This document shows positions 42,422 through 57,201 of a DNA stretch of 64,000 nucleotides, piece after piece. Numbering within the stretch: the first letter of the stretch is position 1; every line of letters begins with the position of its first letter. The position numbers were made by a program, and so were the translations under genes. Origin of the DNA: Terriglobia bacterium (GTDB taxonomy: Bacteria; Acidobacteriota; Terriglobia; Terriglobales; Acidobacteriaceae). Where the stretch lies: positions 1 to 64,000 of the forward strand of contig JAIQFO010000005.1 in assembly GCA_020073215.1 (NCBI GenBank), written 5' to 3'. Under the pieces are notes generated by a model. It saw only the letters and a list, made by a program, of their open reading frames with translations. It searched no databases and was not told where the DNA came from.

Positions 42422-43561
42422 TTAGGGCTGATAAAGTTCCGCGCTCGTCCAATCGTTGTTGGCGTCACTGCCGGATGACGTCAGTACTTTTCCGGAAGTC
42501 AGCAGCGTGGAGGTATGGCCGACGCGGGCGACGCTCATGCTGCCAGTGGAGGTCCATTTCCCGGTCGCGGGATTGTAAAGTTCGGCGCTCGATAGAACTG
42601 TCGTCGTGCCCGCGGTGACATGGTTTCCACCTGCGATCAGGACATTGCCATTCATCAGCATTGTGGATGTGTGCTCGAGGCGGCTGGTGTTGAGGTTGCC
42701 GGTCGCTGTCCATTTCCCGGTGGAGGGGTTATAGAGCTCCGTTCTTATAGTGGTCACGCCGGACAAATTCTCTCCGCCAGCCACCAACACGTTACCGGTT
42801 GCGAGTAGGGCCGCGGTGTGTTCATCACGAGCTGTGATCATGTTGCCAGTGGCGGTCCATTTACCTGTCGCCGGGTTGTAGAGTTCAGCGGTGCCAATTG
42901 GATTGTCGGCGCCATTGATCCCGCCGGCCGCGAGGACCTTGCCGTTGGGGAGCAGCGTGGCCGTCAGATTACCCCGAGCCGCGATCATGGACCCGGTCGC
43001 CGTCCACTTGCCGGTCGAGGGATTGTAGATCTCGGCCTTGTTGGTGACGCCGCTGCAACCGTTGGCGTTGAGACCGGTGCATCCACCCGCCACCAGAATC
43101 TGGCCGCTGGGCAGCCGCACCATGCTGAAATAGGTGCGGGCTGTGATCATTGCGCCGGTAGAGGTCCATTTACCGCCGAGCGAGTTATAGAGCTCTGCAC
43201 TGCTAGTCGTGCCGCTGAGGCAGCTCGAAATACATCCTCCTGCGATCAATATTTCGCCGTTCGGCAAAAGGACAGCGCTGGCATTGGAACGGGCTACGTT
43301 GAGATTTCCTGAGACCACCCATGAACCAAAGGTCGGACTGTAAACCTCAGAGGAAGAGACGGCCTGGTTGTTGTTTTCTCCACCGGCGATAACCACATTG
43401 CCGTTGGGTAGGAGCGTGGCGGTGTGGCCATCGCGCGCGGCATGCAGGCTGGCAGTTCCCGTCCAGGTTCCGCTGGCGGCAAGTGCGAATGCATTCAAGG
43501 CAACGACCAACACCGCGGCGGCGATGATCGTCTTACTAGAGTTCGTGGTGTGCAGCTTCAT
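42422..43561 (-). CDS. Secreted seven-bladed kelch-repeat protein
   Basis: 379 residues from the ATG at 43561, which has an AGGAG 7 bp upstream. A signal peptide (TIIAAAVLVVALNAFALAA) precedes seven kelch-type repeats, each about 50 residues with an HTATLLPNGNVVIAGG-like core and an ELYNPATGKWTATG linker. Seven blades would close one beta-propeller. It could bind a surface polymer or partner; galactose oxidase-like proteins share the fold, but no copper-site residues were recognised. It follows the two-component pair in the opposite transcript order and has its own terminator. Confidence 0.82.
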   Translation of the reverse strand: MKLHTTNSSKTIIAAAVLVVALNAFALAASGTWTGTASLHAARDGHTATLLPNGNVVIAGGENNNQAVSSSEVYSPTFGSWVVSGNLNVARSNASAVLLPNGEILIAGGCISSCLSGTTSSAELYNSLGGKWTSTGAMITARTYFSMVRLPSGQILVAGGCTGLNANGCSGVTNKAEIYNPSTGKWTATGSMIAARGNLTATLLPNGKVLAAGGINGADNPIGTAELYNPATGKWTATGNMITARDEHTAALLATGNVLVAGGENLSGVTTIRTELYNPSTGKWTATGNLNTSRLEHTSTMLMNGNVLIAGGNHVTAGTTTVLSSAELYNPATGKWTSTGSMSVARVGHTSTLLTSGKVLTSSGSDANNDWTSAELYQP

Positions 43562-44049
43562 ATCAAATCTCCTGGATGAGGGTCGCTTTGAACTTTGAAC
43601 CTGGACTCGCAAACTGCACGAGCGTTTGCCGGGGAGGGCTGCCAGGAACCTTGCGCGATCTCAATCGATTTGACTGAAGCAATCCCTGCGCCATATTTCG
43701 ACGGCATGGGCCAGAACCCGGAGAATGCGCGGCAGAAACGCGGGCCACATTTACGGGATTTGTATTCTGCCGTATTGCTTCGCAAGCAACCGGCAGATCG
43801 AGGCCGCTAAAGGGCGTGACTACAGTGTATTGCCGCCCTACGTCCCATCTTGCGGAAGGTGGGATTTTTCGGTAGAGGGGGATCTCATGCCGAAAAATTC
43901 TCGTCCCGAAAGCGCGATTCCTCGCGAATTTCTCTAATGACAAGCGAGCGCTCGCAAGGATTTTGTACGAACCTTTGAACACAAGGCTGAAAAGATTACT
44001 TTACAAATTGACTCTTGCCTTGGTTGTGCCAGATGGAGAACCGCGCGGA
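43562..44049. other. Intergenic region upstream of the kelch gene
   Basis: No gene is clearly supported. It contains a plus-strand hairpin with a T-run (43843-43869) although no plus-strand gene is recognised; a small 71-codon plus-strand frame (43595-43810, TTG start) precedes it but has no recognisable features. A sigma-54-like box of poor quality lies near 44016-44030 on the minus strand. An unannotated transcript is possible. Confidence 0.4.
43843..43869 (+). terminator. Orphan factor-independent terminator
   Basis: TCCCATCTT-GCGG-AAGGTGGGA (43843-43864), a 9-bp stem with one wobble pair, followed by TTTTTC on the plus strand. No plus-strand gene upstream explains it. Confidence 0.5.
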
Positions 44050-45417
44050 TCAATGAGCCGATTGTGAAAAACTGGCTTCGAGTTTGGCTTCTTGGCTGGC
44101 TTCCGCGGTCAGGTCGTGCATGCCGAAGCGGATGCCGATCTTCTTCAGGAAGTCGTAGGGAGGAATGCCGCCCGCAAAGATCCAGACGTAGTCGTTTGGA
44201 ATTTCGCGCACCGTACCTTTAACGTCGAGGACGACCGATTCAGGGTTGAATTCCTTCGGATTCGTCTCGAATAGCACATCGACCTTGCCGCTGCGCATGC
44301 ACTCTTCGATGCGCTTGGAGTTGCGGTCTTTGATACGGCTGAACTGCGCTCCGCGATAGCAGAGCGTGACCTGGTTGCCGACCTGGTTGGCGAGTCCCAT
44401 GGCGGCTTCGACGGCGCTATCGCCGCCACCCACGACGAGAATCTTCTTGTTGACGTAATGGTCGACCTCGATGAGGCGGTACATCACCTTGGGAAGTTCT
44501 TCTCCGGGGACGCCGAGTTTGCGCGGGGTGCCTGTCTTGCCCAGCGCCAGGATCACGGCGTGGGCGCGATACTGGTTGTTGGCGGATTTCACCGTGAAAA
44601 TCCCATCCTCCGCTTTGGCGATCTGCTCGACTTTCTCTCGGGTGACGCAGTTGAAGTCGGCGCGATTGAGGACCATATCCCAGAAGGCGAGCAGGTTTTC
44701 TTTGGAGAGTTCGGTTTTTTTGAACTTTCCGTACATAGGAAATTCGACGGGGCTGGTCATGACCAGTTTCTGGCGCGGGTATTTCGCGACGGTGCCGCCG
44801 ATCTCGTCCTGCTCGAGAGTTACATAGTTGAGTTTGTTCTCGATGGCGCGGAGCGAAGCGCTGATTCCGGCAGGCCCCGCGCCCACGATGAGTAAGTCGT
44901 AAACCCCTGGCAACGCAGGTTGTGGCGAGGCGGCACGGCGGCGGATGAGAGTGTCGACGCAGTCGCGTCCTTGATTGACGGCGTTCTTAATGAGAGCGAG
45001 GCCGCCGAGTTCTCCGATGATGAACAGGTTTTCAAGACTGGTCTCGTACTCCGGGGTCATGTAGGGCATGTCGGCGCTCATGCTGGGAGAGGCCATGACC
45101 ATGGTGATCGCGCCTACCGGGCAAGCTTCCGCGCACAGGCTGTGCCCGATGCACTTGTAGCCGTTGACGATGGCGGCTTTGCCGCCCACCATGGCCAGCA
45201 CGTCGCCCTCAGGGCAGACCGTGGTGCAGGTGGCGCAGCCGATGCAGTAGTTGGTGTCAATGTGGGGATGCTGGGATTTGGGGCCTTCGGAGAAGAGTTT
45301 GCCTTTTTCCGCGGACTTACGGAACTGCTCTTCCTTTTTCTTGAGACTCTTCAGATAGCCGCGCAGAAAGAACAGCGTTAATGCGGCGGCAATGATGAGG
45401 GCAAGCAGCGTGTCCAT
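44050..45417 (-). CDS. FAD/NAD(P)-dependent oxidoreductase with N-terminal ferredoxin domain
   Basis: A 455-residue membrane-anchored flavoenzyme. One span at about residues 3-19 is followed by a ferredoxin-type domain. One [4Fe-4S] cluster has Cys58-61-64-68; in the second (89-99) the second Cys is His92 (CIGHSLCAEACP). A thioredoxin-reductase-like fold follows, with GAGPAG at 179-184 and a second dinucleotide site GGGDSAVEAA near 305. The redox CxxC of thioredoxin reductases is absent, so it is not one. It probably takes electrons from NAD(P)H and passes them through FeS centres. It is the last gene of the cytochrome operon, 10 bp after the cytochrome b gene. Confidence 0.85.
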   Translation of the reverse strand: MDTLLALIIAAALTLFFLRGYLKSLKKKEEQFRKSAEKGKLFSEGPKSQHPHIDTNYCIGCATCTTVCPEGDVLAMVGGKAAIVNGYKCIGHSLCAEACPVGAITMVMASPSMSADMPYMTPEYETSLENLFIIGELGGLALIKNAVNQGRDCVDTLIRRRAASPQPALPGVYDLLIVGAGPAGISASLRAIENKLNYVTLEQDEIGGTVAKYPRQKLVMTSPVEFPMYGKFKKTELSKENLLAFWDMVLNRADFNCVTREKVEQIAKAEDGIFTVKSANNQYRAHAVILALGKTGTPRKLGVPGEELPKVMYRLIEVDHYVNKKILVVGGGDSAVEAAMGLANQVGNQVTLCYRGAQFSRIKDRNSKRIEECMRSGKVDVLFETNPKEFNPESVVLDVKGTVREIPNDYVWIFAGGIPPYDFLKKIGIRFGMHDLTAEASQEAKLEASFSQSAH

Positions 45418-45427
45418 GGCGACCGTC

Positions 45428-46381
45428 CTAGAAGAATCCCATCATCAACACCACACCAATGTGAATGAGCGCCAGGATGGCGAACGTGTAACTGAACGGC
45501 TTGTGCACCACGTGCCAGAGGTGGAAGACCTGCTCGGTGCGCGAGAGAAAGAGAATGCGTTTAGAAAGCGAAGCTTCTTCGCGCGCGACGGCGATGGCAC
45601 GCTCCATTTCGCAGTTGCGGGTAGGCAGCATCCCGCCGAGGGTGGTGAGATGCTCGGCGCCGTGGAGGGCCCCGTTACGCAGGCGGGCGATGCGGAAAGG
45701 CCTCGCCAAGTCGAGCAGAAGCATGTAGACCAGGGCAAGCGGAATCGGCAGTTTGTCCACCGCTTGCTGGCTGGGCAGGCGGAGGGCGGAGCGCAGGTTA
45801 GCGGCTTGCAAAAAGTTCTGCTGCTCCAGTTGCTGGGTCATTTTCTCCTGCAGTTCCTGGAGTTCCTTGCGCGACAGTTCGGCAGCGTTCACGCGGCGGG
45901 GAATCTGGCTATAGAGGTAGCGTCCGACGACTCCGCTCAGAGAAACTGCCAGCATGATCCAAAAGGCGACCCCGGCGAACCCATGGAACTTGAACGAGGC
46001 GTGCAGGGCGATGACGAAAGGCGCCGACAGGCCGAGCAGTACATGGAAGTCGAGCCAGTGGCGAGCCGACCCTTGCCGTCCAAGCCACGTCCAGTACTTG
46101 CGCAGCGGGTAGAGGAAGATAACCAGGAACATGGCAAATCCGAGGATGCCGAGTTTGACTCCAACGCGGCCGCTGGGCCGGAGTAGCACATGTTTCCCCA
46201 TGAACGGCCGGTCGTTGGGGCTGGCCGTGTAGTAATCGAAGCCATACGCCGCGATGCCGACAATCAGCGCGATGGCAATGGCGTATCCGGCAAACAGGCG
46301 TAACCTGTGGCCGGCGTCAGGATTCTTTGCGGCGACCACTGCCGCGGACGGCAGTGGGGCGGATGCTGTGGCTGTGCTCAT
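45428..46381 (-). CDS. Dihaem cytochrome b-type membrane protein
   Basis: A 317-residue protein with about five to six membrane spans. Two spans each hold a pair of His exactly 14 residues apart: H113/H127 (FHVLLGLSAPFVIALH) and H293/H307 (HKPFSYTFAILALIH). This H-x13-H in two helices is the classic bis-His arrangement for two b haems stacked across a membrane. A Gln-rich coiled stretch (about 165-195) lies between the helix pairs. It should move electrons across the inner membrane. The start codon overlaps the LolA-like stop codon in ATGA, and the FAD/FeS gene follows. Confidence 0.85.
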   Translation of the reverse strand: MSTATASAPLPSAAVVAAKNPDAGHRLRLFAGYAIAIALIVGIAAYGFDYYTASPNDRPFMGKHVLLRPSGRVGVKLGILGFAMFLVIFLYPLRKYWTWLGRQGSARHWLDFHVLLGLSAPFVIALHASFKFHGFAGVAFWIMLAVSLSGVVGRYLYSQIPRRVNAAELSRKELQELQEKMTQQLEQQNFLQAANLRSALRLPSQQAVDKLPIPLALVYMLLLDLARPFRIARLRNGALHGAEHLTTLGGMLPTRNCEMERAIAVAREEASLSKRILFLSRTEQVFHLWHVVHKPFSYTFAILALIHIGVVLMMGFF

Positions 46382-47205
46382 TTTTGTGCGACGTGCTCCT
46401 CGGTAGCGACCGAAAATTGTTTATAAGCGGTAAAACGATGTGTGTTGCGCCAGTGCTGTTTGGGCGTCTCAACCTCAACTACAGCTTCTGTGGGGAACCA
46501 GTACACCGGATCGTCCCGGTGAAGATCGTCCTGGTGAAACGTCACGGGCGCGTATGTTACCTGTGACTGCAGGGACTTCATGCCGATGTCCTCCAGAGTA
46601 GAGGCAATACCAGCCTCTATGCGCAGCAGGTTGCCGGTCTCAGGATCCACCCAGGCGGTGCCGGACAACTCCAGCGGGTATTCGCGTTCGCGAAGAGCCA
46701 GCGCCGCGACGGAACGCGTGTTACGGATGTGCTGGAAACGGATCTTGCGGGCGTTTTGCCCGTTGAGCATTTCGGCGCCGGCGTCGCTGAACTCGAAGCT
46801 GTTCACGTAGTAAGGGTGGAAGACCAGAAAGAGCGTGGCGAAGCCGTTACTGAGCAGCATCGAGATGTCTTTCTTACGGTCGGCGGTTGCCTGTTTCACG
46901 GGCAGGCGAGATTCTGCCAGGCTCAATTCTCCGCCGACGTTGGTGAAGAGGACCAGGTAGTCGTAGGTCGACTGCTCCTGTAGTTCAATTTTCCCATTGG
47001 GCTTGAATTTCTCTTGGGTGACCTGCTCGGTGCACTTGACGTCGGAGAAAAGATCGAGGAAACGAGAGACGCGCTGAGTGACGCGGTCGAGGACTTTGTC
47101 GAGCGGTTCCTGAGTTGGTGCAGCGCCGGCGAGCGCGCCAGTTAGCAGGAGCGAAACCAGCAGGCCGGATCGCAGGCAGTTGCAGAAATATGTCTTCATT
47201 ATCAT
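46378..47205 (-). CDS. Secreted LolA-like protein of the cytochrome operon
   Basis: A 275-residue protein with a signal peptide (GLLVSLLLTGALAGAA). The rest resembles outer-membrane lipoprotein-sorting proteins: beta-rich, with LELSGTAWVDPETGNLLRIEAG and a hydrophobic strand pattern. No haem motif is present. Its ATG overlaps the stop codon of the beta-barrel gene in ATGA, and its own stop overlaps the cytochrome b start, so it is tightly coupled to both. It may help place or stabilise the barrel or cytochromes; this is an inference. Confidence 0.65.
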   Translation of the reverse strand: MIMKTYFCNCLRSGLLVSLLLTGALAGAAPTQEPLDKVLDRVTQRVSRFLDLFSDVKCTEQVTQEKFKPNGKIELQEQSTYDYLVLFTNVGGELSLAESRLPVKQATADRKKDISMLLSNGFATLFLVFHPYYVNSFEFSDAGAEMLNGQNARKIRFQHIRNTRSVAALALREREYPLELSGTAWVDPETGNLLRIEAGIASTLEDIGMKSLQSQVTYAPVTFHQDDLHRDDPVYWFPTEAVVEVETPKQHWRNTHRFTAYKQFSVATEEHVAQK

Positions 47206-49817
47206 TGCCCCATGTGTCCGTGCCGGTTATCGAAGCGGTAGCCGAAGGTGAAAAGCCACTGATCGTAGTTCATCTGGCCGCCGCGGTTGATGGTGCCGCC
47301 GAATTGCATGAAGTAGTGTTCGCCCAGCGCAGTCTCGAGCATCCCGTTGAGAAAGCGGGAGCGGTTGGCGCTGGTCAAGGTGGACGCGAAGTTCTGCTGC
47401 CCGGCGAGCACCTGCAACTGGAAGGTCTCGCCCAGATTCCTGGTGAGGCTGAATGCTTTGTAGTTGCCGCTGCCGAAAGCGCTGTTGAAGCGCGAGTAGC
47501 GGAGGTCGGCGTGGGCGCCGATCCAGGGCACGTGGCCGAAGGTGATGCCGTACATCTGGTTCAGGGAGTTTTTCTTGTCACCGCTGCGGTTGCTCGAGCC
47601 CAGGTCGGCGCTCAGCCAGATCTGCTTGTGGACTTCGACCCGAGTGCCGGCGCTGAAGCCCTGGAAGAGATACTTGTCGAGCAAGCCGGTCCCGATCAGG
47701 GTCGGATCGAAGGTGGGCAGATCGCGGAAGTAGGTGTGGTTCAAGCTGAACTCGATGCGTGGGTGCGGTTGAAAGCGCACCGTCGTAAAGCTGCGGCCTG
47801 CACCCCAGCCGGGTCCCGGCTTCCAGACGTTCGTGTTCGTTGTCGGATCGAGGTACCAGTACCCCTGCGGGCTGTCGATTTGCGTAGCCTGGTAAATGGA
47901 GAACACACGCTTGTAGAAAATACCGTTTTCGGTGAAGAGAAACGGCCGGTCCGGACTCCACTTGAGCATGTTCATGCCGCCGCCGGTGGTGGAGGTGTAG
48001 TGCAGATCGTCGTAGCTGCCGCCTTCGAAATTGACGAAGGCGCCTCCAATCTCGCGTTGAGGATTGTAGTTGTAGGAGGTCGGGTCGGGAGTGGAACCGA
48101 GGAACACGCCGGTGGTTACGCCGGTCGTGAGTTTCCGTCCGAAGTAGCCGCCGTCGATGGTGTCGAGACTGGTGGCCCAGGGCAGATACATGCGCCCGAA
48201 ACCCGCGACCCAAGAGGAACGTGGATTGTCGTAACTGGTATAGAGGTGGTAGGTCCGGTTGATAAGGTCTTGCAAAGTCTGGGGACCGGCCGCAGTGTGG
48301 TCGAGGCGACCGCGCCAGTATCCGCTGACGTTCCAGTAGGTGCCGTTGATGCGGGTGATATCGGCGCGCACGACCATGCCGAGATTGCTGCTCTGCATGC
48401 CGGAGCCGCCATGATCGACGACGCCCATGTAGTCGAATCCGATGCGGCCGCGCGCCCGGTTGACGGACGGCAGCGGCGGCTTGGGCACTTCGCTACGCGC
48501 CTCGTCGTCGAGTGTGTCGTTTTCCGTGAAGCTGACCGCCGCTGGATATTTGCGCGTGGCGCTGAGCGCGTTCTTCGCCACCAAGGCCTGCTGATCGGCG
48601 GAAGAGAGATAAGCAAGGTCGCCGATTTTCACCGGGCGTTTGGGAGTGTGTATCTCGGTAACAGCGGAGGTTTCCGCAACCGATAAGACTTCCAGTTCGG
48701 CGACATCACCGGCGGCGCTGGAATCTGCGCCCGCGGCAGCCACTCCACCCGCATTCGGCAGATCACGGACGACCAATTTCATACCCTCGGCAAGGCCGGC
48801 AGCCCGCCCGCCATCCAGGTAGGCGGCATCCTGCGCTACGTACTTGACGCGGAAGGCGGTGCGAAAGTCGGGGTTGTCGCTGGTGCCAGCAGCCGGCTGC
48901 AATCCAAGAACCTGCGCAGAACCCCCTGCGGCCTCCTGCACCCCGCCCACGACTGCGGTTTGCGTTGCGTCCGCGGCAGCACTCTGCCCGGAGGACGAGG
49001 GGAGGAAGGTGCGCGCGTCCTCGCGGACAGAAGCTGCCGCTTCCGGTGATGCGTCTGTGCTGAGCTTGGGCTCCTGGGGGAGCGGCGGTTGAGCCGATCC
49101 TTGCCGCACATTCGCCGTCGCCGAACTCTGACTGTCTTTGATGTCGAGTCCACTGGGTGAGGTGGTTCCCGCGACCGGCGGGACATTTTCCTTAGTAGGA
49201 GAAGCAGCGGTGGCAGGCGCGGGAGACTGGGAATCCGCGGCCGGAGGCGGAAATTGAATCGGCGGTCCTGACGGAGGCGGAGTCAGCAAAATCGAATCGT
49301 GGTTCGACGAACTGCCAGGCTGACCGCCGTTAAAATCTGGCGTGCGTCCCCGCGAACCGAGCAGCGGCCTGCTGGCCGCGGCTGCGGGTGGGGTGCGGCG
49401 TGATGACGCGCTGAGAGGCGCTTGTACTACGAGGATGATCTTCATGCCGTCGGTCGAGGTGCCGGCGATCGAGATCGTGTACGGGTGCTCTTGATCCAGA
49501 TCCACCACGAGACGAGTCTCGGGGGGAGCAGGCTGGTTCAGGCCGTAGCGGATGGAACGCACACCGAATTGACGAACCGCAATTCGTTTCTGTTGCGCAT
49601 CGGCAACGGTCCCGGGAAGTTTGAGAATCAGACGATCTGGACGCTGCGCGGTCTCAACCGCGGGAGTAACCGTGGAACTCAAAGTGATTTCGACGCGGAC
49701 CTCACCGCCCGCAGGGAAGACTTCCACCTTGCGTATTTCGACGGGGCCGCCGTCCGCCAGGGACGGCAGCGCTGCCAACAGGACCAGGAACGGTCCCAGA
49801 TGAATCAACCGCTTCAT
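47202..49817 (-). CDS. AMIN-domain outer-membrane beta-barrel protein
   Basis: An 871-residue protein with a signal peptide (LGPFLVLLAALPSLADG). The N-terminal AMIN domain (about 27-130, VEIRKVEVFPAGGEVRVEI) is a peptidoglycan-contacting module. A long Pro/Ser/Ala-rich linker (about 135-330) leads to a region of alternating beta strands (about 460-871) rich in aromatic girdle residues, fitting an outer-membrane barrel; it ends with TFGYRFDNRHGHMGQ rather than a terminal Phe. It lies between two multihaem cytochromes and the membrane electron carriers. By inference it is the outer-membrane conduit or anchor for the cytochromes. Confidence 0.75.
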   Translation of the reverse strand: MKRLIHLGPFLVLLAALPSLADGGPVEIRKVEVFPAGGEVRVEITLSSTVTPAVETAQRPDRLILKLPGTVADAQQKRIAVRQFGVRSIRYGLNQPAPPETRLVVDLDQEHPYTISIAGTSTDGMKIILVVQAPLSASSRRTPPAAAASRPLLGSRGRTPDFNGGQPGSSSNHDSILLTPPPSGPPIQFPPPAADSQSPAPATAASPTKENVPPVAGTTSPSGLDIKDSQSSATANVRQGSAQPPLPQEPKLSTDASPEAAASVREDARTFLPSSSGQSAAADATQTAVVGGVQEAAGGSAQVLGLQPAAGTSDNPDFRTAFRVKYVAQDAAYLDGGRAAGLAEGMKLVVRDLPNAGGVAAAGADSSAAGDVAELEVLSVAETSAVTEIHTPKRPVKIGDLAYLSSADQQALVAKNALSATRKYPAAVSFTENDTLDDEARSEVPKPPLPSVNRARGRIGFDYMGVVDHGGSGMQSSNLGMVVRADITRINGTYWNVSGYWRGRLDHTAAGPQTLQDLINRTYHLYTSYDNPRSSWVAGFGRMYLPWATSLDTIDGGYFGRKLTTGVTTGVFLGSTPDPTSYNYNPQREIGGAFVNFEGGSYDDLHYTSTTGGGMNMLKWSPDRPFLFTENGIFYKRVFSIYQATQIDSPQGYWYLDPTTNTNVWKPGPGWGAGRSFTTVRFQPHPRIEFSLNHTYFRDLPTFDPTLIGTGLLDKYLFQGFSAGTRVEVHKQIWLSADLGSSNRSGDKKNSLNQMYGITFGHVPWIGAHADLRYSRFNSAFGSGNYKAFSLTRNLGETFQLQVLAGQQNFASTLTSANRSRFLNGMLETALGEHYFMQFGGTINRGGQMNYDQWLFTFGYRFDNRHGHMGQ

Positions 49818-49892
49818 TCTCCCTCTTCATATCCAAAATTTCTCGAAACGCTTTCTTGCTTTCCCTATCCCATAGAGCACGTCATTTGCCCT

Positions 49893-52082
49893 TTACCCGC
49901 CGGTAGTACCACTCTTGTGGCACTGATAGCAATTCACGCTGTTGTACACATAGCCGGACACGCCCTGGTGATTCTGGTCGGTCTGCGGCTTCAGGTGGCA
50001 GTTGGTGCAGGTGAAAACCGAATAATCGTTCGGGTTGGTGTGGCACGTACTGCAAATACCATTGGCGCCGCCGTGGGTGGTGGGGAACCAGGTGTGATTG
50101 AAGGTCGCGTCGGTCCAGACCTTGGTGTCATGGCAAGTCGCGCAGGTCGTCGGGAACCCGGCTGCAACGTGGTTCGGGTTGTTGGTGCCCTGGTAATCGG
50201 CCTTGTGACAGCCGTAGCAGTCGGTCGGCAGGGTCGTCCAGTTATTGTTGACGTGGCAGTCGGTGCACTGGCGCGGAGGCACGGTGTGCGAACCGGTCAG
50301 CGGGACAGCCGTCTTGCTGTGGTCAAAGGTTGAGTCGGTCCAGACGATGGTGTCATGGCAAACCTCGCACGTGGTGGGGAACCCAACCTGGGCGTGCGGT
50401 GGGTCGTTCGTCTTGTTGTAGTCGGCCAGGTGGCAGGTGACGCAAGCCGTCTGATTCAACTTGTAGTTGCTGTTGACGTGACAATCGCTGCAGGCGCGCG
50501 GCGGCACGGTGTGCGAACCGGTCAGGGCCCACCCGGTCTGTGAATGGTCAAACTTGCCGTCCATCCAGTTGATGGTGTCGTGACAGGTTTCGCAGGCTGT
50601 GGGGAAACTGGCCTGTATGTGGTCGACGGGCGTCTTGGCGTTGTTGTAGTCGGTCTGGTGGCAACTGACGCAGGAAGTATTAGTGATGTTGTAGTTGTTG
50701 TTGACGTGGCAGTCGCTGCAGGCGCGAGGCGGCACCGTATGCGAGCCGGTAAGCGGGAAGCCGGATTTCGAGTGATCGAATGTCGCGGGATCCCAGGCGG
50801 TCGTGCTGTGGCAGACGTCGCAGGTCTGGGGGAAGCCCTGCTGCGCATGATTCGGATTATTCGTGTTCTGGTAATCCTTCAGGTGACACGACACACACGA
50901 CGTCTGCGTCAAGTTGTAGTTGTTGTTGACGTGGCAGTCGGCGCAGGCGCGAGGCGGCACCGTATGCGAGCCGGTAAGCGGGAAGCCGGATTTCGAGTGA
51001 TCAAAACTCGCAGGCTGCCAGGTGGACGTGTTGTGACAGACCTCGCAAGTCTGGGGGAACCCACCCTGCACATGATTCGGGTTGCCCGCGTTTGTGAAGT
51101 CCTTCTGGTGGCACGAGACACACGTCGTCTGCGTCAGGTTGAAGTTGTTGCCGGCGTGGCAGCCCGCGTCGGTGCAAGTGCGCGGCGGCACGGTATGCGC
51201 CCCCGTGAGCGGAAATCCCGACTTTGAGTGATCGAACTGCGCCGGCGACCAGGCCACCGTCGTGTGACACGATTGGCAAGTCTGGGCGAATCCCATCTGC
51301 GCGTGATTCGGGTTGCTGGCGCTGGTGAAGTCCTTCAGATGGCAGGAGACGCATGCGGTCTGGGTCAGGTTGTAGTTATTGTTGACGTGACAGTCGGTGC
51401 AGGCCCGCGGGGGTACGGCGTGGCCCCCCGTCAGGGGGAAGTTGGTGAGAGAGTGATCGAACTTGCCACCGAGCCAGGTATCGGTTGAATGGCACGACTC
51501 GCAGGTCGTCGCGAATCCAGACTGGGCGTGGTTAGGGCTCTGAGCACCCTGGTAGTCCTTCTGGTGGCAGCTGAAACAGGCAGTGGACATGGTGCTGTAC
51601 TGGCTCAGCGCTCCGCTCTTGTGACAGTCGTCGCAGGAAGCGGCGGCGTGCGCGCCCGTGAGCGGGAACCGGTTCATATGCTGATTGATCTGGGTGACGG
51701 AGACCTTCCACCCGCGGACGCTATGGCAGTTCTCGCAGGCGGCGCCCATGCGGCCCTTGTGTAGGTCAGCATGGCAATTGGCGCACTTGTTGCCGACATT
51801 GCTGAACACCATTTTGGTATGGCAGCCGGTGCAGGTAACACCGTCGTGCATGCCGCGCAGGGGAAAGCGCGTCTGGTTGTGATCGAACTCGGGAACGGCA
51901 CGGATCGGCTTCCAGCCGTAGACCGTGTGGCAGTCCTGGCAGGGACGATCCAGATTGCCGTGGGGGCTGCGTGTGTTCGGTGCCACTTGTCCGCGGGCAG
52001 CAGGGATGAGTGGCGGCAACAGAAGCCACCAGATCATCCATCTTGCAATCAGACTTGGAGAGACCACGCTCCAGCCCCACAC
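49893..52082 (-). CDS. 28-haem c-type cytochrome of tandem three-haem repeats
   Basis: A 729-residue secreted protein (start GTG 52082; signal ARWMIWWLLLPPLIPAARG). I count 27 CxxCH motifs plus one CTDAGCH (CX4CH, bases 51156-51176), 28 in all. Six full repeats of about 75 residues each carry three haems and three spare His (in FDHS, GSHTVPPR and NPNHAQ), the number needed for bis-His ligation of all three. Flanking N- and C-terminal parts are diverged repeats. Two repeats share a 60-bp identical stretch (50718-50777, 50943-51002) exactly 225 bp apart, a sign of recent duplication. It lies between a second multihaem gene and the barrel gene, so a periplasmic or outer-surface electron wire is likely. 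Confidence 0.93.
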   Translation of the reverse strand: MWGWSVVSPSLIARWMIWWLLLPPLIPAARGQVAPNTRSPHGNLDRPCQDCHTVYGWKPIRAVPEFDHNQTRFPLRGMHDGVTCTGCHTKMVFSNVGNKCANCHADLHKGRMGAACENCHSVRGWKVSVTQINQHMNRFPLTGAHAAASCDDCHKSGALSQYSTMSTACFSCHQKDYQGAQSPNHAQSGFATTCESCHSTDTWLGGKFDHSLTNFPLTGGHAVPPRACTDCHVNNNYNLTQTACVSCHLKDFTSASNPNHAQMGFAQTCQSCHTTVAWSPAQFDHSKSGFPLTGAHTVPPRTCTDAGCHAGNNFNLTQTTCVSCHQKDFTNAGNPNHVQGGFPQTCEVCHNTSTWQPASFDHSKSGFPLTGSHTVPPRACADCHVNNNYNLTQTSCVSCHLKDYQNTNNPNHAQQGFPQTCDVCHSTTAWDPATFDHSKSGFPLTGSHTVPPRACSDCHVNNNYNITNTSCVSCHQTDYNNAKTPVDHIQASFPTACETCHDTINWMDGKFDHSQTGWALTGSHTVPPRACSDCHVNSNYKLNQTACVTCHLADYNKTNDPPHAQVGFPTTCEVCHDTIVWTDSTFDHSKTAVPLTGSHTVPPRQCTDCHVNNNWTTLPTDCYGCHKADYQGTNNPNHVAAGFPTTCATCHDTKVWTDATFNHTWFPTTHGGANGICSTCHTNPNDYSVFTCTNCHLKPQTDQNHQGVSGYVYNSVNCYQCHKSGTTGG

Positions 52083-52465
52083 TGTTAAGAATTTAGTTCC
52101 CGCAAATCTATGATGGAGGGCAATTGTCGGCTAATAGAGCAATCGAATTTCCAAGAAGAGTAGCTGTAACACTCATAAGTTCCCAAGTTACGGCAGTGAG
52201 TGTTCAAGGGTACAATCCGCATCTCGTTCAAAAACACGCCTTAAGTGCTCTGATGCGTTCCGGGCATAAAACGTAAGTTCTTCCAGAAAAGGCGAAAAAA
52301 ATACGGTTCAGAAAATTGGACGTTTGCATACGAAATCGACAGGTTTCTTGACACAAGCGCTGATATCTTGACAAACGGGCCCGGGAAGAGCGCGAACGGA
52401 CCCCCCTGCCAGAGCGGGAACCGGCCGCGGGAGCGGCAGTCCGAAGACCGCCACCAGCGCCGGGT
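52083..52465. other. Gap between the two multihaem cytochrome genes
   Basis: No gene is supported. Two TTGACA boxes on the plus strand have no downstream gene in range. On the minus strand a CGCCTT...AAGGCG stem (about 52238-52297) with a T-run could end the upstream cytochrome transcript, but the stem is short and the loop long. Confidence 0.4.
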
Positions 52466-54457
52466 TTAGGACTTTGGCTGAAACTTGGGATTGGTACCGT
52501 GGCAGTCTCTGCAGTCCTTGGGCGTGGGTTTGTAGAACAGCACCTGTTTACCTTCCACCTCGCGCAAGAGTTTGTGGCAGTCGGCACAGCGGACGTTTTT
52601 GTGCGCTCCCGCCAGCGCAAACGCCGTGCGCTTGTCGTGATCAAAAAGCGAGGGCTTCCACTTGGCAGTATTGTGACAGTCGGCGCAGGGGGTATCGCCC
52701 CCGGCTTTGGCGAATTGGCGGCCGTGAATGTCGGAATGGCATTCCTCGCACTTCGTCGGGGCCTGGGTGAAGTCCACGTTGGTGAGCTTCATTTCCAGAT
52801 TCGGCGGCCGGTGGCAGTCGATGCAAGCTACGGCGCGATGCGCGCCGAGCAGAGCAAACCGGGTCCGGTCGTGATCGAAGCGCGTGATATCTTGCCAGTT
52901 CTTGGTGGAATGGCAGGCTTCGCAGCCGGCGGGTGTGCCGTCGGCGCGGGGCGCCCTCATGCGCTCGGCAAACTGGCCGCGGTGCGGGTCCTGATGACAA
53001 GTGGTGCAGGAAAGTTCCCGGAAGTGATATACGGTGCTGGTCTTGTAGCCGGCCGGTCCGGCAGTGGGCTCAGTTTGCACGGCCACGGAAGCCGGGAGCA
53101 ACGAGGCACTGGCAAAGGCTGAAGCCGGCTTATGGCAATCGCTGCACAGGACCGCCAGATGGCTGCCGGCGAGTTGGAAACGGGTTTGTTTGTGCTTGGC
53201 GAGCGCAAACGTCGACGGCTTGAATCCCTCAAGTGTATGGCACTTCTCGCACTGATTTAGCCAGGGCGAAGCGGCGAACTGCGTCTGGTGCTCGTCGTGG
53301 TGGCAGTCCATGCAACGGGAGAACTTAACTTTATAAAGCGTGTCCCTTCCCTTCGCGACGTGGCACTGGGCGCACTCGAGCTTCGCGTGCTTGCCTTCAA
53401 GCGGGTATGCGGTGGAGGCATGCGCCTTCATATCAAACTTAGAAGGTTTCCAACCGTTGACGTCGTGGCAAGAAGCGCACTCGCCGCCATCGGAACGCTT
53501 TGCGAACTGGCCGTTGTGTGCGTCCTTATGGCAATCCATGCATTTCGCGAACGGCAGTTCCTTCTTAAAATCGCCGTTGGCGTGGCAGGCGATGCATTCC
53601 ACTGCTTGGTGCTTGCCGAGCAGCGGGTACTTGGTCTTGGAGTGATCAAAATTCCCGGCGAGACCGGAGGAGACGATTCGTTTCCAGCCGCCGGTAGTAT
53701 GGCAGGACTGGCAGGACTGCCGAGCAAAGCTGCCTTTGTGCGGGTCGCTGTGGCAGTCGTCACATTTGCCGAAGGGCAGGCCCATGTAGCGGGGCTGGTT
53801 GTCGGGGCCGGGCGTGTGGCATTTTTCGCATTTGACGGGCGCGTGCTGGCCGGTCAGCGGATAACGCGTCTTCGAGTGATCGAACGTCCCCGAAACGTTT
53901 TTCCAGGCGTTGAAGTTGTGGCACTGTGCGCAATTGGGGCCGAGCCGCCCGGCGTGAGGATCCTTGTGACAGGTGGCGCAGGCTTCGGAAACGCCGAGGA
54001 AGGTGCGCTTGAGATCCTTGACCTTGATCAAGGCGCGCTCGCTGGCGGGAATGTGGTCAGGAGCGTGGCATTTCCCGCATTCGAGCCCGGCGTGCTTTCC
54101 TTCCAGGAGGTAGCCTGTCTGCTTATGGTCGAATTTCTTTGTGTCCCACTTGACGATGGGGAAATCCAGGCCGTTGTGATCGGAGTGGCACTTGGCGCAT
54201 TCCTGGCTCGAACCGGGCCGGATGCCATACGAGGAATGCGCGCCGCGGTGAGCCGCGAGGCGGGAGGCAATCTCGGCATGGCAGTCGAGGCACCTGAAGG
54301 CGGGCTCACCTCCTCCCAGTTTGTGACAAGTGGTGCAGTGCGTCGCCCCGTCGAGCTCTTGATGGGCACGGGAGAGGGGCCCGGGCGAGATCTGGGCGAC
54401 GGCTGTGGCCGACAGAACGGCGACAGCCAGAATCAAGACGAGTTTCTGCCGAGACAT
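52466..54457 (-). CDS. 23-haem c-type cytochrome
   Basis: A 663-residue secreted protein from the ATG at 54457 (signal LVLILAVAVLSATAVAQ). I count 23 CxxCH motifs. They are less regular than in the neighbouring 28-haem protein but share FDHSKTRYPLTGQH-type strings, with His residues placed before many haem motifs as probable distal ligands. Several CHKDPHAG/CHSDPHKG segments recur. The protein has no membrane span, so it should be periplasmic or at the cell surface. It is the first gene of the electron-transfer cluster and is divergent from a Ser/Thr kinase gene. The ATG at 54457 was chosen because the signal peptide starts there. Confidence 0.93.
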   Translation of the reverse strand: MSRQKLVLILAVAVLSATAVAQISPGPLSRAHQELDGATHCTTCHKLGGGEPAFRCLDCHAEIASRLAAHRGAHSSYGIRPGSSQECAKCHSDHNGLDFPIVKWDTKKFDHKQTGYLLEGKHAGLECGKCHAPDHIPASERALIKVKDLKRTFLGVSEACATCHKDPHAGRLGPNCAQCHNFNAWKNVSGTFDHSKTRYPLTGQHAPVKCEKCHTPGPDNQPRYMGLPFGKCDDCHSDPHKGSFARQSCQSCHTTGGWKRIVSSGLAGNFDHSKTKYPLLGKHQAVECIACHANGDFKKELPFAKCMDCHKDAHNGQFAKRSDGGECASCHDVNGWKPSKFDMKAHASTAYPLEGKHAKLECAQCHVAKGRDTLYKVKFSRCMDCHHDEHQTQFAASPWLNQCEKCHTLEGFKPSTFALAKHKQTRFQLAGSHLAVLCSDCHKPASAFASASLLPASVAVQTEPTAGPAGYKTSTVYHFRELSCTTCHQDPHRGQFAERMRAPRADGTPAGCEACHSTKNWQDITRFDHDRTRFALLGAHRAVACIDCHRPPNLEMKLTNVDFTQAPTKCEECHSDIHGRQFAKAGGDTPCADCHNTAKWKPSLFDHDKRTAFALAGAHKNVRCADCHKLLREVEGKQVLFYKPTPKDCRDCHGTNPKFQPKS

Positions 54458-54729: not shown

Positions 54730-57201
54730 ATGATAAGCGAGACCATCTCGCACTATCGAATTTTAGAGAAGCTGGGGGGCGGCGGCATGGGTGTCGTCTA
54801 TAAGGCTGAGGACACCGACCTTGGCCGCTTTGTGGCGCTGAAATTCCTGCCCGACGATGTGGCGCAGGACCCGCAGGCATTGGAACGTTTTCGACGTGAA
54901 GCCCGCGCTGCCTCCGCGTTGAACCATCCAAACATCTGCACGATTTACGAAATCGGCAAGCACGACGGGCGTTCGTTTATTGCCATGGAGTTTCTGGACG
55001 GCGCGACGCTGAAGCACGCGATTGGCAATCGGCCGATGGAACTGGAGCGCGTCCTGGACCTGGGTATGGAGGTTGCGGATGCGCTCGACGCCGCTCACGC
55101 CCAGGGCATCGTGCATCGTGACATCAAACCGGCCAACATTTTCGTCACCAAACGAGGACATGCCAAGATCCTCGACTTCGGCTTGGCCAAAGTGACTCCA
55201 CAGAAGCCCCAAGCGGCCGGGGGCGAAGCCACTGCGACGGTTGTGGCCGAGGAGCATCTGACCAACCCGGGCAGCACGTTGGGAACCGTCGCTTATATGT
55301 CTCCCGAGCAGGTTTTGGGCAAGGAACTGGATGCCCGCACCGACCTGTTCTCTTTCGGCGCGGTGCTGTACGAGATGTGTACCGGAATGCTGCCCTTCCG
55401 GGGCGACAGTTCGGGCGTCATTTTCGACTCGATTCTGCATAAAGTTCCGGTGGCCCCTGTGCGACTGAACTCTGACCTTCCGCTCAAGCTTGAAGACGTG
55501 ATCAGCAAGGCACTGGAGAAGGATCGCGAAATTCGCTACCAGTCCGCCGCCGAGTTAAGGGCGGACCTGAAGCGAGTGAAGCGGGATAGTGAGTCGCAGC
55601 GGCTTCAGGTCACGGCTTCGGAAACAACGGGATGGTCAAGAGTAGGCCGATTCCGCAAGGCGTTGATCTTGGCAGGGGCCGCAGTGCTGGCCGGAGTTCT
55701 GGTCGCGGCTGCGGTGCGTTCTTACAACTCGCTTGCTCACCCCTCGCCAGCGGGCAAAATGGCTGCAAAGCCATCGGTGGAAACGATTGCTGTGCTTCCC
55801 TTCCATGACATTTCGGCGGCGACGAGCGACAGTTGGGCCATCGGGATCACCGACGCCATCATAAGCCGTTTAGCCTCATTGCAGAACCTTGCCGTGAGGC
55901 CGACAACCTCCGTTTTGAAGTATGCGAAGGAAACGCCAGAGCCCATGGAAGCGGCCAAGGCATTGGGCGTGGAAAGCGTGCTGGAAGGGACCTACCAGCG
56001 TTCCTCGGATGTAATCCGGGTGACGGTTCAACTGATCGACGGACGCGCTGGAACCACCAAGTGGTCGCAACGTTACGATCTGCACAGCGCCGACATTCTG
56101 AGCTTTGAGGATCAGATTGCAAGCAAGGTGGTGGAAGGGCTGCAGATCGAAATCTCTCCCACGGAGCAGAAGTCGATCGAACAGCCCGTGACCACCAGCG
56201 TGGATGCCTACAACGACTACTTGCAGGCGCGTTTTTATCAGAATGAGTATCTCGTGTATTCAGGGCTCGACAGTATGGAAAAAGCCGAGCGTCTGCTTTT
56301 GCATGCGATTTCGCTCGATAAGAATTTCGCAGACGCCTACGCACTGCTGGCGGAGCTCTATGCCTTTCAGGGCGCAAACTTCGTTAAGGATGCCGAAACG
56401 AACCTAAAGCGCGCCGAGGTCACAGCCCAGAACGCATTGAGGATCAATCCACAGTCGACGGAGGGATTGATTGCGCTGGGGGGCATTTACGGTGAGGAAG
56501 GCCGGGGGCAAGAAGCCATCCGTACTCTCAGGCGGGCAGTTACACTCGCGCCGAACAGTGAGACCGCATGGCAAATGCTGGGGTATTCGTACTACTACGC
56601 TGGCCTCAATGAACTCGCCGAGCCAGCCTACCGCCGGGTTATCGAATTGAATCCCGCGCCTCCTCAGCCTCACTGGATGCGCGCCCGCATGCTTCTATAC
56701 ATGGGTAAAGGGCATGAAGCGGAAGAAGAAATGCGACAGGTGGTTGCGAAGAATCCGGATCAATTCAAGGCCTTAGCCTACCTCGGCGGGGTTCTCTATT
56801 ACCAAGGAAAACTCGACGAAGCCAAGACGAATCTAGACCGGGCCGTTCTGCTCGCTCGCGACTCCGGCGACGACACGCCCCGGCTGATGGCGGCATTCCT
56901 CTACGCATCGCGCAACCAACGGGAAAAGATCGACGGCAGGTTATTCCAATACCGTCCCGAACAGGTGATCGATGGCGATGATGCTTACTGGCTCGGGGGA
57001 ATCTATGCCCTGCTTGGCGACAGACGGCGTGCCGTCGATTGGCTCCAACGAGCGGTTGCGCTCGGAGATGTGAACTACCCCTGGTTCGAACGAGACAAGA
57101 ACTACGACAGTCTGCGGGCTGACGCCGAGTACCAGACGATCATGGCCGGGGTTCGCCAACGCTGGGAGGCATACAAGAAGGAGTTCGATGTGGCTCGATG
57201 A
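54730..57201 (+). CDS. Membrane Ser/Thr protein kinase with extracytoplasmic TolB/TPR region
   Basis: An 823-residue protein. The kinase domain (about 10-275) has [26 protein letters not shown] and DFGLAKV. A span near residue 312 ([19 protein letters not shown]) divides it from a domain with [13 protein letters not shown], like the FlgO/TolB-related domain of CadC and acidobacterial kinases. At least six TPR-like helical repeats follow (from about 505 on), with [19 protein letters not shown] and [20 protein letters not shown]. It probably senses or recruits proteins outside the membrane. It is divergent from the 23-haem cytochrome gene, so shared control is possible but unproven. Confidence 0.92.

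Follow-up and report, generated by a model that had tools for sequence, protein, structure and literature searches.

Little is understood of how Acidobacteriota, a phylum that ranks with the most common bacteria of soils, pass electrons to minerals and humus. Among the closest described systems, MtrCAB, the OmcB-type porin-cytochrome conduits (Pcc), ExtABCD and the porin-multihaem cytochrome (MHC) clusters of Verrucomicrobia place an outer-membrane barrel beside multihaem cytochromes, MtrA being a decahaem protein, while CbcL and ImcH of Geobacter and CymA of Shewanella form the inner-membrane entry to multihaem wires, CbcL pairing b-type helices with c haems. GSU1996 and GSU2210, the c7-type nanowire cytochromes of Geobacter, are long monomeric proteins, and GSU1996 carries 12 haems in a length of about 12 nm. 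Porin-cytochrome clusters have been reported from Verrucomicrobia (PMC5615132) and Holophaga (PMC7399161), and a peat metagenome study found decahaem sequences of Acidobacteria and also names a Koribacter cytochrome with 16 haems (PMC3669403), each according to the passages of these papers used here; the word Acidobacteria does not occur in the main text, in the form available, of a large survey of outer-membrane multihaem cytochromes (PMC11475568). Here we analysed a block of six minus-strand genes at positions 44050-54457 of a 64,000-nucleotide stretch of DNA (the window) from Terriglobia bacterium, a member of the Acidobacteriaceae (assembly GCA_020073215.1, contig JAIQFO010000005.1, positions 1 to 64,000), which an earlier note had read as a candidate six-gene system for moving electrons across the cell envelope. 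We did not find this gene set described in the open-licence literature on such conduits and their carriers, in the parts of it that were available, which is weak evidence of absence.

The six open reading frames (ORFs) were found where the earlier note had placed them. They encode a 23-haem secreted cytochrome c (MHC23, 52466-54457), a 28-haem secreted cytochrome c (MHC28, 49893-52082), a barrel protein (P0004, 47202-49817), a secreted protein with a predicted LolA-superfamily fold (P0003, 46378-47205), a five-helix dihaem cytochrome b (CYB or P0002, 45428-46381) and a membrane-anchored ferredoxin-flavoprotein (P0001, 44050-45417). The two haem counts given in the note held (23 CxxCH motifs in MHC23, 27 CxxCH plus one CX4CH in MHC28), as did the overlaps at 47202-47205 (barrel/LolA-like) and 46378-46381 (LolA-like/CYB) and the 10-bp gap at 45418-45427. 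A Pfam search placed AMIN on P0004, Pyr_redox and a dicluster ferredoxin on P0001 and cytochrome c7/c3 repeats on the two secreted cytochromes (P0005 and P0006), and found no family above its cut-off on P0003. Judged from the sequences, the invariant core is narrower than these six genes: CYB and MHC23 form it, and either of two flavoproteins goes with them. We regard it as fairly probable that the block encodes a trans-envelope electron-export conduit that is fed directly by NAD(P)H and bypasses quinones.

The co-occurrence of the genes was assessed in a sample of 297 genomes from the phylum, with cut-offs picked after the scores had been seen and with only the best few candidates scored per genome, so that an absence in these searches is not proof. 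CYB gave some match in 43 of the 297 genomes and a match above 150 bits in 33. MHC23 (E <= 1e-60) was present in 31 genomes, all of them among these 33, and in no other genome of the sample; the two CYB genomes without it at this threshold are G063, where the contig is 3.4 kb long, and G255, where a 24-haem neighbour is matched by a local profile search. The ferredoxin-flavoprotein (above 340 bits) was found in 26 genomes, every one of them among these 33; 22 have it in the stretch or contig that also carries CYB, and the remaining four (G065, G242, G286 and G294) have it on another contig. Weaker matches occurred in 22 further genomes, G087 included. The other genes are distributed differently: strong barrel matches were obtained in 14 genomes, in one of them as fragments, which is a narrower group than that of CYB, and strong LolA-like matches in 13, with weaker ones elsewhere (65 in all). 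Hypergeometric p-values for these co-occurrences take related genomes as independent and were not used as probabilities.

The best evidence for the input is the exchange of the flavoprotein. Seven of the 33 CYB genomes carry, at the CYB locus, an FNR-type reductase instead of the ferredoxin-flavoprotein; the hypergeometric p-value for this reductase was discarded as meaningless, since it had been sought in the fetched CYB loci only. In the four loci scanned with Pfam it consists of FAD_binding_6, NAD_binding_1 and a 2Fe-2S domain (Fer2), with the ferric-reductase NAD-binding family PF08030 over its cut-off in three of the four, and a profile built from these four proteins finds the reductases of the other three loci and also gives a match in a remote CYB locus (L114). 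The reductase adjoins the CYB ORF in six of the seven genomes and lies within about 0.8 kb of it in the seventh (L089). Two unrelated NAD(P)H flavin/Fe-S modules thus alternate with one cytochrome b, which argues for NAD(P)H, not quinol, as the input. Natural fusions at L117:5105-10832 join the same parts: one protein runs from FHA through a transmembrane segment (TM), seven CxxCH motifs and another TM to a ferredoxin and an FAD domain in the order of P0001, so that hydropathy places its haems on one side of the membrane and its flavin on the other, and the neighbouring protein is a cNMP-ferredoxin-CYB fusion. The earlier idea that an NAD(P)H-type flavoprotein feeds the wire has gained from both the replacement and the fusions.

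P0001 itself has an N-terminal membrane anchor (residues 4-22) with basic residues after it, and carries two Fe-S sites as well as an FAD/NAD(P)H domain resembling that of YpdA. It shares FAD and NAD(P)H domains with the bacillithiol reductase YpdA/Bdr and with TrxR-type FNR (PDB 7a7b, 3ab1), and differs from them in being circularly permuted, membrane-anchored and fused to a ferredoxin; the YpdA model TIGR04018 gave 168 bits, against a cut-off of 339.9. In profile comparisons, two segments of P0001 align with relatives of normal domain order: residues 172-436 with their residues 5-267 (E 5.6e-57), and residues 116-160 with their residues 269-313 (probability 97.8%, E 1.1e-12; ferredoxin control 0.1%). 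We read this order, with the later part first, as a circular permutation. Direct searches did not serve for this: re-ordered P0001 scored 169.2 bits instead of 168.1 (NCBIfam), a gain of about 1 bit, and the PDB matches, as listed, were not extended into the moved segment. The second Fe-S site lacks one Cys in 25 of 25 copies. A fixed His ligand in place of this Cys was considered and dropped, as His is present in 16 of 16 copies but replaced by Ala or Ile in two of nine more distant ones (pattern-matched, ten loci scanned).

The whole block also recurs. A contig scan with the cytochrome b protein yielded 17 loci in records named Acidobacteria, Acidobacteriota, Acidobacteriaceae, Terriglobia, Bryobacterales or Occallatibacter, nine of which carry all six genes in the order of the window; a tenth has all six with the flavoprotein inverted, and seven are incomplete, mostly cut by contig ends. 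Of the first ten phylum regions around strong CYB matches, seven again have the six genes in order and two are cut by contig ends. This recurrence in the same order excludes chance, and the genes are not scattered singly in relatives, which the earlier note would have taken as a refutation; CYB and the 23-haem cytochrome are the most conserved pair. Opposite-strand shadow ORFs aside, the most frequent extra neighbour was found in 5 of 21 loci, so that, within the limited length of flank fetched, conservation does not extend past the six genes. The whole set, in order, is present in the record named Occallatibacter savannae strain AB23.

The two cytochromes differ in how their length varies. 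Each of ten relatives of MHC23 in our alignment has 23 CxxCH motifs, and within the window group the number is exactly 23 in 18 of 18 loci with an unbroken first cytochrome, while the second cytochrome ranges from 22 to 51 across the same 18 loci. Among 14 unfused copies from other acidobacterial groups, 23 haems were counted in ten, 24 in three and 20 in one. MHC28 contains a tandem DNA array (50246-51404) of two overlapping repeat rows with 74 and 78% matches and a period of 225 bp, equal to 75 residues and three haems, whereas the only repeat content of the MHC23 gene is a 20-bp run of period 9; at an offset of 75 residues the self-identity of MHC28 is 0.32, against at most 0.10 for MHC23. 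The triheme repeats recall GSU1996, which is built of triheme domains, and the nanowire_3heme model TIGR04257 gave 30.4 bits (cut-off 40). GSU2210 has 27 haems (PMC10138318, in the passages used); here, by contrast, one cytochrome is constant in haem number within the window group and the other variable, and a barrel and a dihaem b protein stand alongside. Both proteins here also have more haems than the eight-haem periplasmic protein described in the available passages on the Verrucomicrobia clusters (PMC5615132). They exceed the decahaem MtrA as well. Both cytochromes share one ORF, judged by haem spacing, in five loci, three of which run off the contig end; the complete fusion in L097 has 1255 residues and 51 haems, and the adjoining CYB ORF is broken by a stop. 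We suggest that the two proteins may form an end-to-end wire with one part of fixed length and one of free length. At the 12 haems and roughly 12 nm of GSU1996, 23 haems would roughly span the periplasm. Genome G131 has a second 23-haem cytochrome (L161:7464-12104), whose neighbours are a tetrahaem and an 11-haem protein; the stretch fetched there contains no CYB match.

The hydropathy of CYB gives five membrane segments. His113 and His127 in TM3 are present in 57 of 57 relatives, ten of them remote, and His293 and His307 in TM5 in 56 of 56, the ORF of the 57th relative being broken. Four canonical haem-ligating His in TM3 and TM5 are the layout of the ferric reductase/NADPH oxidase superfamily (FRD/NOX), according to the passages used of PMC3591440, and the spacing of 13-14 residues in CYB agrees with it. 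FRE, NOX and SpNOX proteins likewise have a cytoplasmic NAD(P)H/FAD partner, and the alternative partner of CYB is of the FNR type. In the long FRE/NOX forms the dehydrogenase is fused to the haem domain; here it is a separate neighbouring gene with Fe-S sites, electrons would go to a multihaem cytochrome, and the match to PF01794 is sub-threshold, as are those of the window CYB to b561 and DUF4405. Short bacterial forms of the superfamily lack the dehydrogenase domain too (PMC3591440, same passages). CYB may therefore work like the ferric reductase/NADPH oxidase family, of which it is at most a candidate member. No PDB entry was matched in sequence searches with CYB or MHC23. A weak McsA-like match (19.9 bits, cut-off 210) falls in the long CYB loop (residues 159-202), a stretch that is poorly conserved in relatives.

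P0004 is arranged as AMIN, a low-complexity linker, a small domain and a predicted outer-membrane beta-barrel. When residues 305-871 are modelled with AF2, the small domain is followed by 22 long strands from model residue 150 on, and the best 50 Foldseek matches of this model are ushers, MOMP, AlgE, porins and other outer-membrane barrels; the prediction, of moderate confidence, thus argues for a strand-rich outer-membrane barrel, as the earlier note had expected, and not for a soluble protein. The barrels of other groups appear related to it by profile comparison (probability 100 and 96.9%, against 0.3 and 0.1% for controls from unrelated families), bearing in mind that barrels are alike as a class. 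In encoding an outer-membrane barrel together with a multihaem cytochrome the block resembles the Mtr and Pcc systems. It differs in that P0004 has no MtrB_PioB match, the PF11854 matches of the genome being on other contigs, and in that the inner-membrane module lies within the same block; the OmbB and Ext barrels stood outside this comparison. AMIN (44.5 bits) is the only Pfam family on P0004 at E <= 0.1, and we dropped it as a defining feature: scans of 28 barrel proteins found it in 10, which is a minimum since some of the proteins, that of the window included, lack the N-terminus, and in the complete 552-residue protein of L086 the signal peptide leads directly into the next domain. The barrel of the earlier AMIN-barrel description is thus retained and its AMIN part is optional. 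The small domain is FlgT_C-like in four of the 28 relatives (E <= 0.01), and not in the window copy. The AF2 model of P0003 (mean pLDDT 85) has DUF1329, LolA3 and the LolA superfamily as top Foldseek matches (E about 1e-6), which points to a LolA fold with TM-scores of only about 0.4, and this protein probably helps to assemble the outer-membrane part, although a carrier role is conceivable as well, LolA itself being the carrier of lipoproteins from LolCDE to LolB. Profiles of the LolA-like protein and of the barrel gave only matches with E > 1 in the PDB. In three loci (L158, L159 and L160) a LolA-like domain of the P0003 type is part of a protein of about 640-670 residues, and the stretches fetched there contain no multihaem ORF.

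From the gene linkage, the haem and cofactor motifs, the membrane segments, the alternation of the two flavoproteins and the natural fusions, all of which are features of the sequences, we infer the direction of flow, the path of the wire, the acceptor and any role of the LolA-like and AMIN parts. Cytoplasmic NAD(P)H would reduce the FAD of P0001, and the two Fe-S sites of this protein would pass the electrons on to the CYB haem on the cytoplasmic side. A stack of two b haems would then lead them over the inner membrane, in the manner of ferric reductases and NADPH oxidases. The fixed-length 23-haem cytochrome would act as the periplasmic carrier, the repeat-built cytochrome would extend the wire at, through or beyond the outer-membrane barrel, and an extracellular acceptor such as Fe(III), Mn(IV), humic quinones or O2 would be reduced. 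With NAD(P)H inside the cell, outward flow to most soil acceptors is downhill and inward flow steeply uphill, which favours export; minerals or electrodes would be candidate destinations.

Several observations count against this proposal. L037 is not cut by a contig end and has a split 23-haem ORF (12 and 11 motifs), a barrel fragment, an inverted flavoprotein and no second cytochrome, and L082 has a shortened barrel and a split cytochrome (19 and 4 motifs); both loci are degenerate or misassembled. Barrel matches above 200 bits were obtained in 8 of 24 genomes of the window genus, so that the trait is patchy, and in G313 and G179, two genomes where CYB gave no match, the barrel adjoins a multihaem ORF, so that the outer part can stand alone. 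The confidence of the barrel model is moderate (mean pLDDT 69.7, pTM 0.54), and an MtrB-type structure is absent from its best 50 Foldseek matches. At a contig end, the window genome has an MtrB/PioB-type barrel with a decahaem protein (L145:1531-2550, G000:C8:12-1340), and the block is therefore not the sole possible outlet. One of the genomes with the FNR-type reductase, G087, also has its weak flavoprotein match, of 211 bits, elsewhere. PF01794 scored 14.7 bits against CYB (cut-off 28), and at E <= 0.1 it matched 6 of 17 CYB members (best E 0.0023), compared with 13 of 17 for DUF4405, so that CYB may have a quinone site.

Such a site would suit a quinol-linked conduit, in which CYB, as a quinol dehydrogenase of the kind proposed for CbcL, would feed the wire with electrons from menaquinol and the flavoprotein would act either as an NAD(P)H:quinone reductase or in regulation. 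CYB does resemble b561/DUF4405 dihaem proteins, and the inner-membrane entry families of bacterial extracellular electron transfer, CbcL, ImcH and CymA included, are quinol oxidases or quinone reductases according to the passages used of PMC6295460. Here, however, CYB goes with an NAD(P)H-type flavoprotein, and b haems and c haems are on different proteins; each of the 33 genomes has at least one of the two flavin modules, CYB is fused to ferredoxin-type domains in L117, and P0002-P0006 have no NapC/NirT match (PF03264, Pfam, E <= 0.1), all of which makes a quinol-linked conduit unlikely. We consider it quite unlikely that the block, instead of being a mineral-respiring conduit, stores electrons in the periplasm, acts against oxidants or makes superoxide in the manner of NADPH oxidases. 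The layout of CYB and the two COX1-type oxidases of the genome would fit such functions, long c7-type Geobacter cytochromes have been proposed as capacitors (PMC10138318) and a relative of one named carrier failed to grow anaerobically (PMC12935467), both in the passages used of these papers; but a barrel of the same family adjoins a multihaem ORF even where no CYB was found, in L156 and L157, which points to the outer membrane, and a reservoir would not obviously need a protein with a fixed number of 23 haems.

Electron import, left as an option by the earlier note, would have Fe(II), Mn(II), humics or partner cells feed electrons inward to NAD(P)H. Multihaem wires can in principle run both ways, and MtoAB-type conduits have been proposed to import. 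The route from Fe(II) to NAD(P)H is, however, steeply uphill, and no energy-coupled module recurs beside the block in the 21 loci with their limited flanks, so that import is very improbable, and thermodynamically unlikely for a system with an NAD(P)H-type partner. Of the earlier interpretation, the linked block is supported and the flavoprotein-fed wire strengthened, while the gene membership, the place of AMIN and the option of import call for correction. The NAD(P)H-fed export conduit is the reading that we retain.

Related gene sets exist beyond the window group. Six loci (L108-L113) form a remote sister system with a common pattern of FAD protein, CYB and cytochrome; in L109, a YpdA-like FAD protein with cNMP domains and a ferredoxin, a CYB relative and an FHA-domain decahaem cytochrome are accompanied by another decahaem protein and by two large non-haem ORFs, of which one has HbpS-like domains. 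This system may correspond to group 1 of the porin-cytochrome clusters (PCC) from a ghost-rock metagenome, in which, in the available parts of PMC13264449, a porin and a cytochrome have a ferredoxin-NADP reductase nearby in 7 of 11 clusters and Acidobacteriota are among the carriers of PCC. Like the block described here, group 1 thus combines porin, cytochrome and reductase; it has large decahaem cytochromes, and those parts mention no dihaem b or 23-haem protein for it, while group 3 includes cytochromes with more than 20 motifs.

In the window, the longest ORF of MHC23 extends to 54550; we placed the start at the Met of MSRQKLV, giving 52466-54457, because the signal peptide begins there and the upstream residues are not conserved. 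A gap of 383 bp (52083-52465) separates the two cytochrome genes and could hold a second promoter; a simple scan found no minus-strand promoter-like or terminator-like site in it and one plus-strand promoter-like match, in a region with chance-level counts. The gap preceding the barrel gene measures 75 bp. The G+C content of the six genes (0.57-0.62) is ordinary for the window (0.60). Outside the block, Pfam identified a Kelch-repeat protein (42422-43612) and a Ser/Thr kinase with TPR repeats (54730-57201). Two COX1 genes over the cut-off, cytochrome c assembly genes, the MtrB/PioB-type barrel with its decahaem protein and NapC/NirT-type proteins (PF03264) on other contigs suggest that the organism can probably respire oxygen and has other possible electron outlets. 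Another contig of the genome (L144, G000:C50) carries a cluster of ORFs with 13, 19 and 5 haems, and the 5-haem ORF matches NapC/NirT.

Tentatively, and with rather less assurance than for the conduit itself, we suggest that the block represents a quinone-bypassing class of extracellular electron transfer, in which a split NADPH-oxidase-like enzyme of the inner membrane would feed NAD(P)H electrons to a 23-haem cytochrome whose length the periplasm dictates, joined end to end to a repeat-expandable one that reaches or passes the barrel, and that this class may be widespread in soil Acidobacteriota, cultivable ones included. The Occallatibacter savannae AB23 record means that the question may be open to culture work. 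One wire has a fixed haem number and the other can grow by repeats, so that comparing the two would directly test whether it is the periplasm that dictates how long a cytochrome is. If our reading is true, electrons would enter extracellular electron transfer from NAD(P)H and not from the quinone pool; since electrons that leave without protons spend membrane potential, the role of such an entry would more probably be to balance the redox state or to drive external reductive chemistry than to support respiration of the classical kind.

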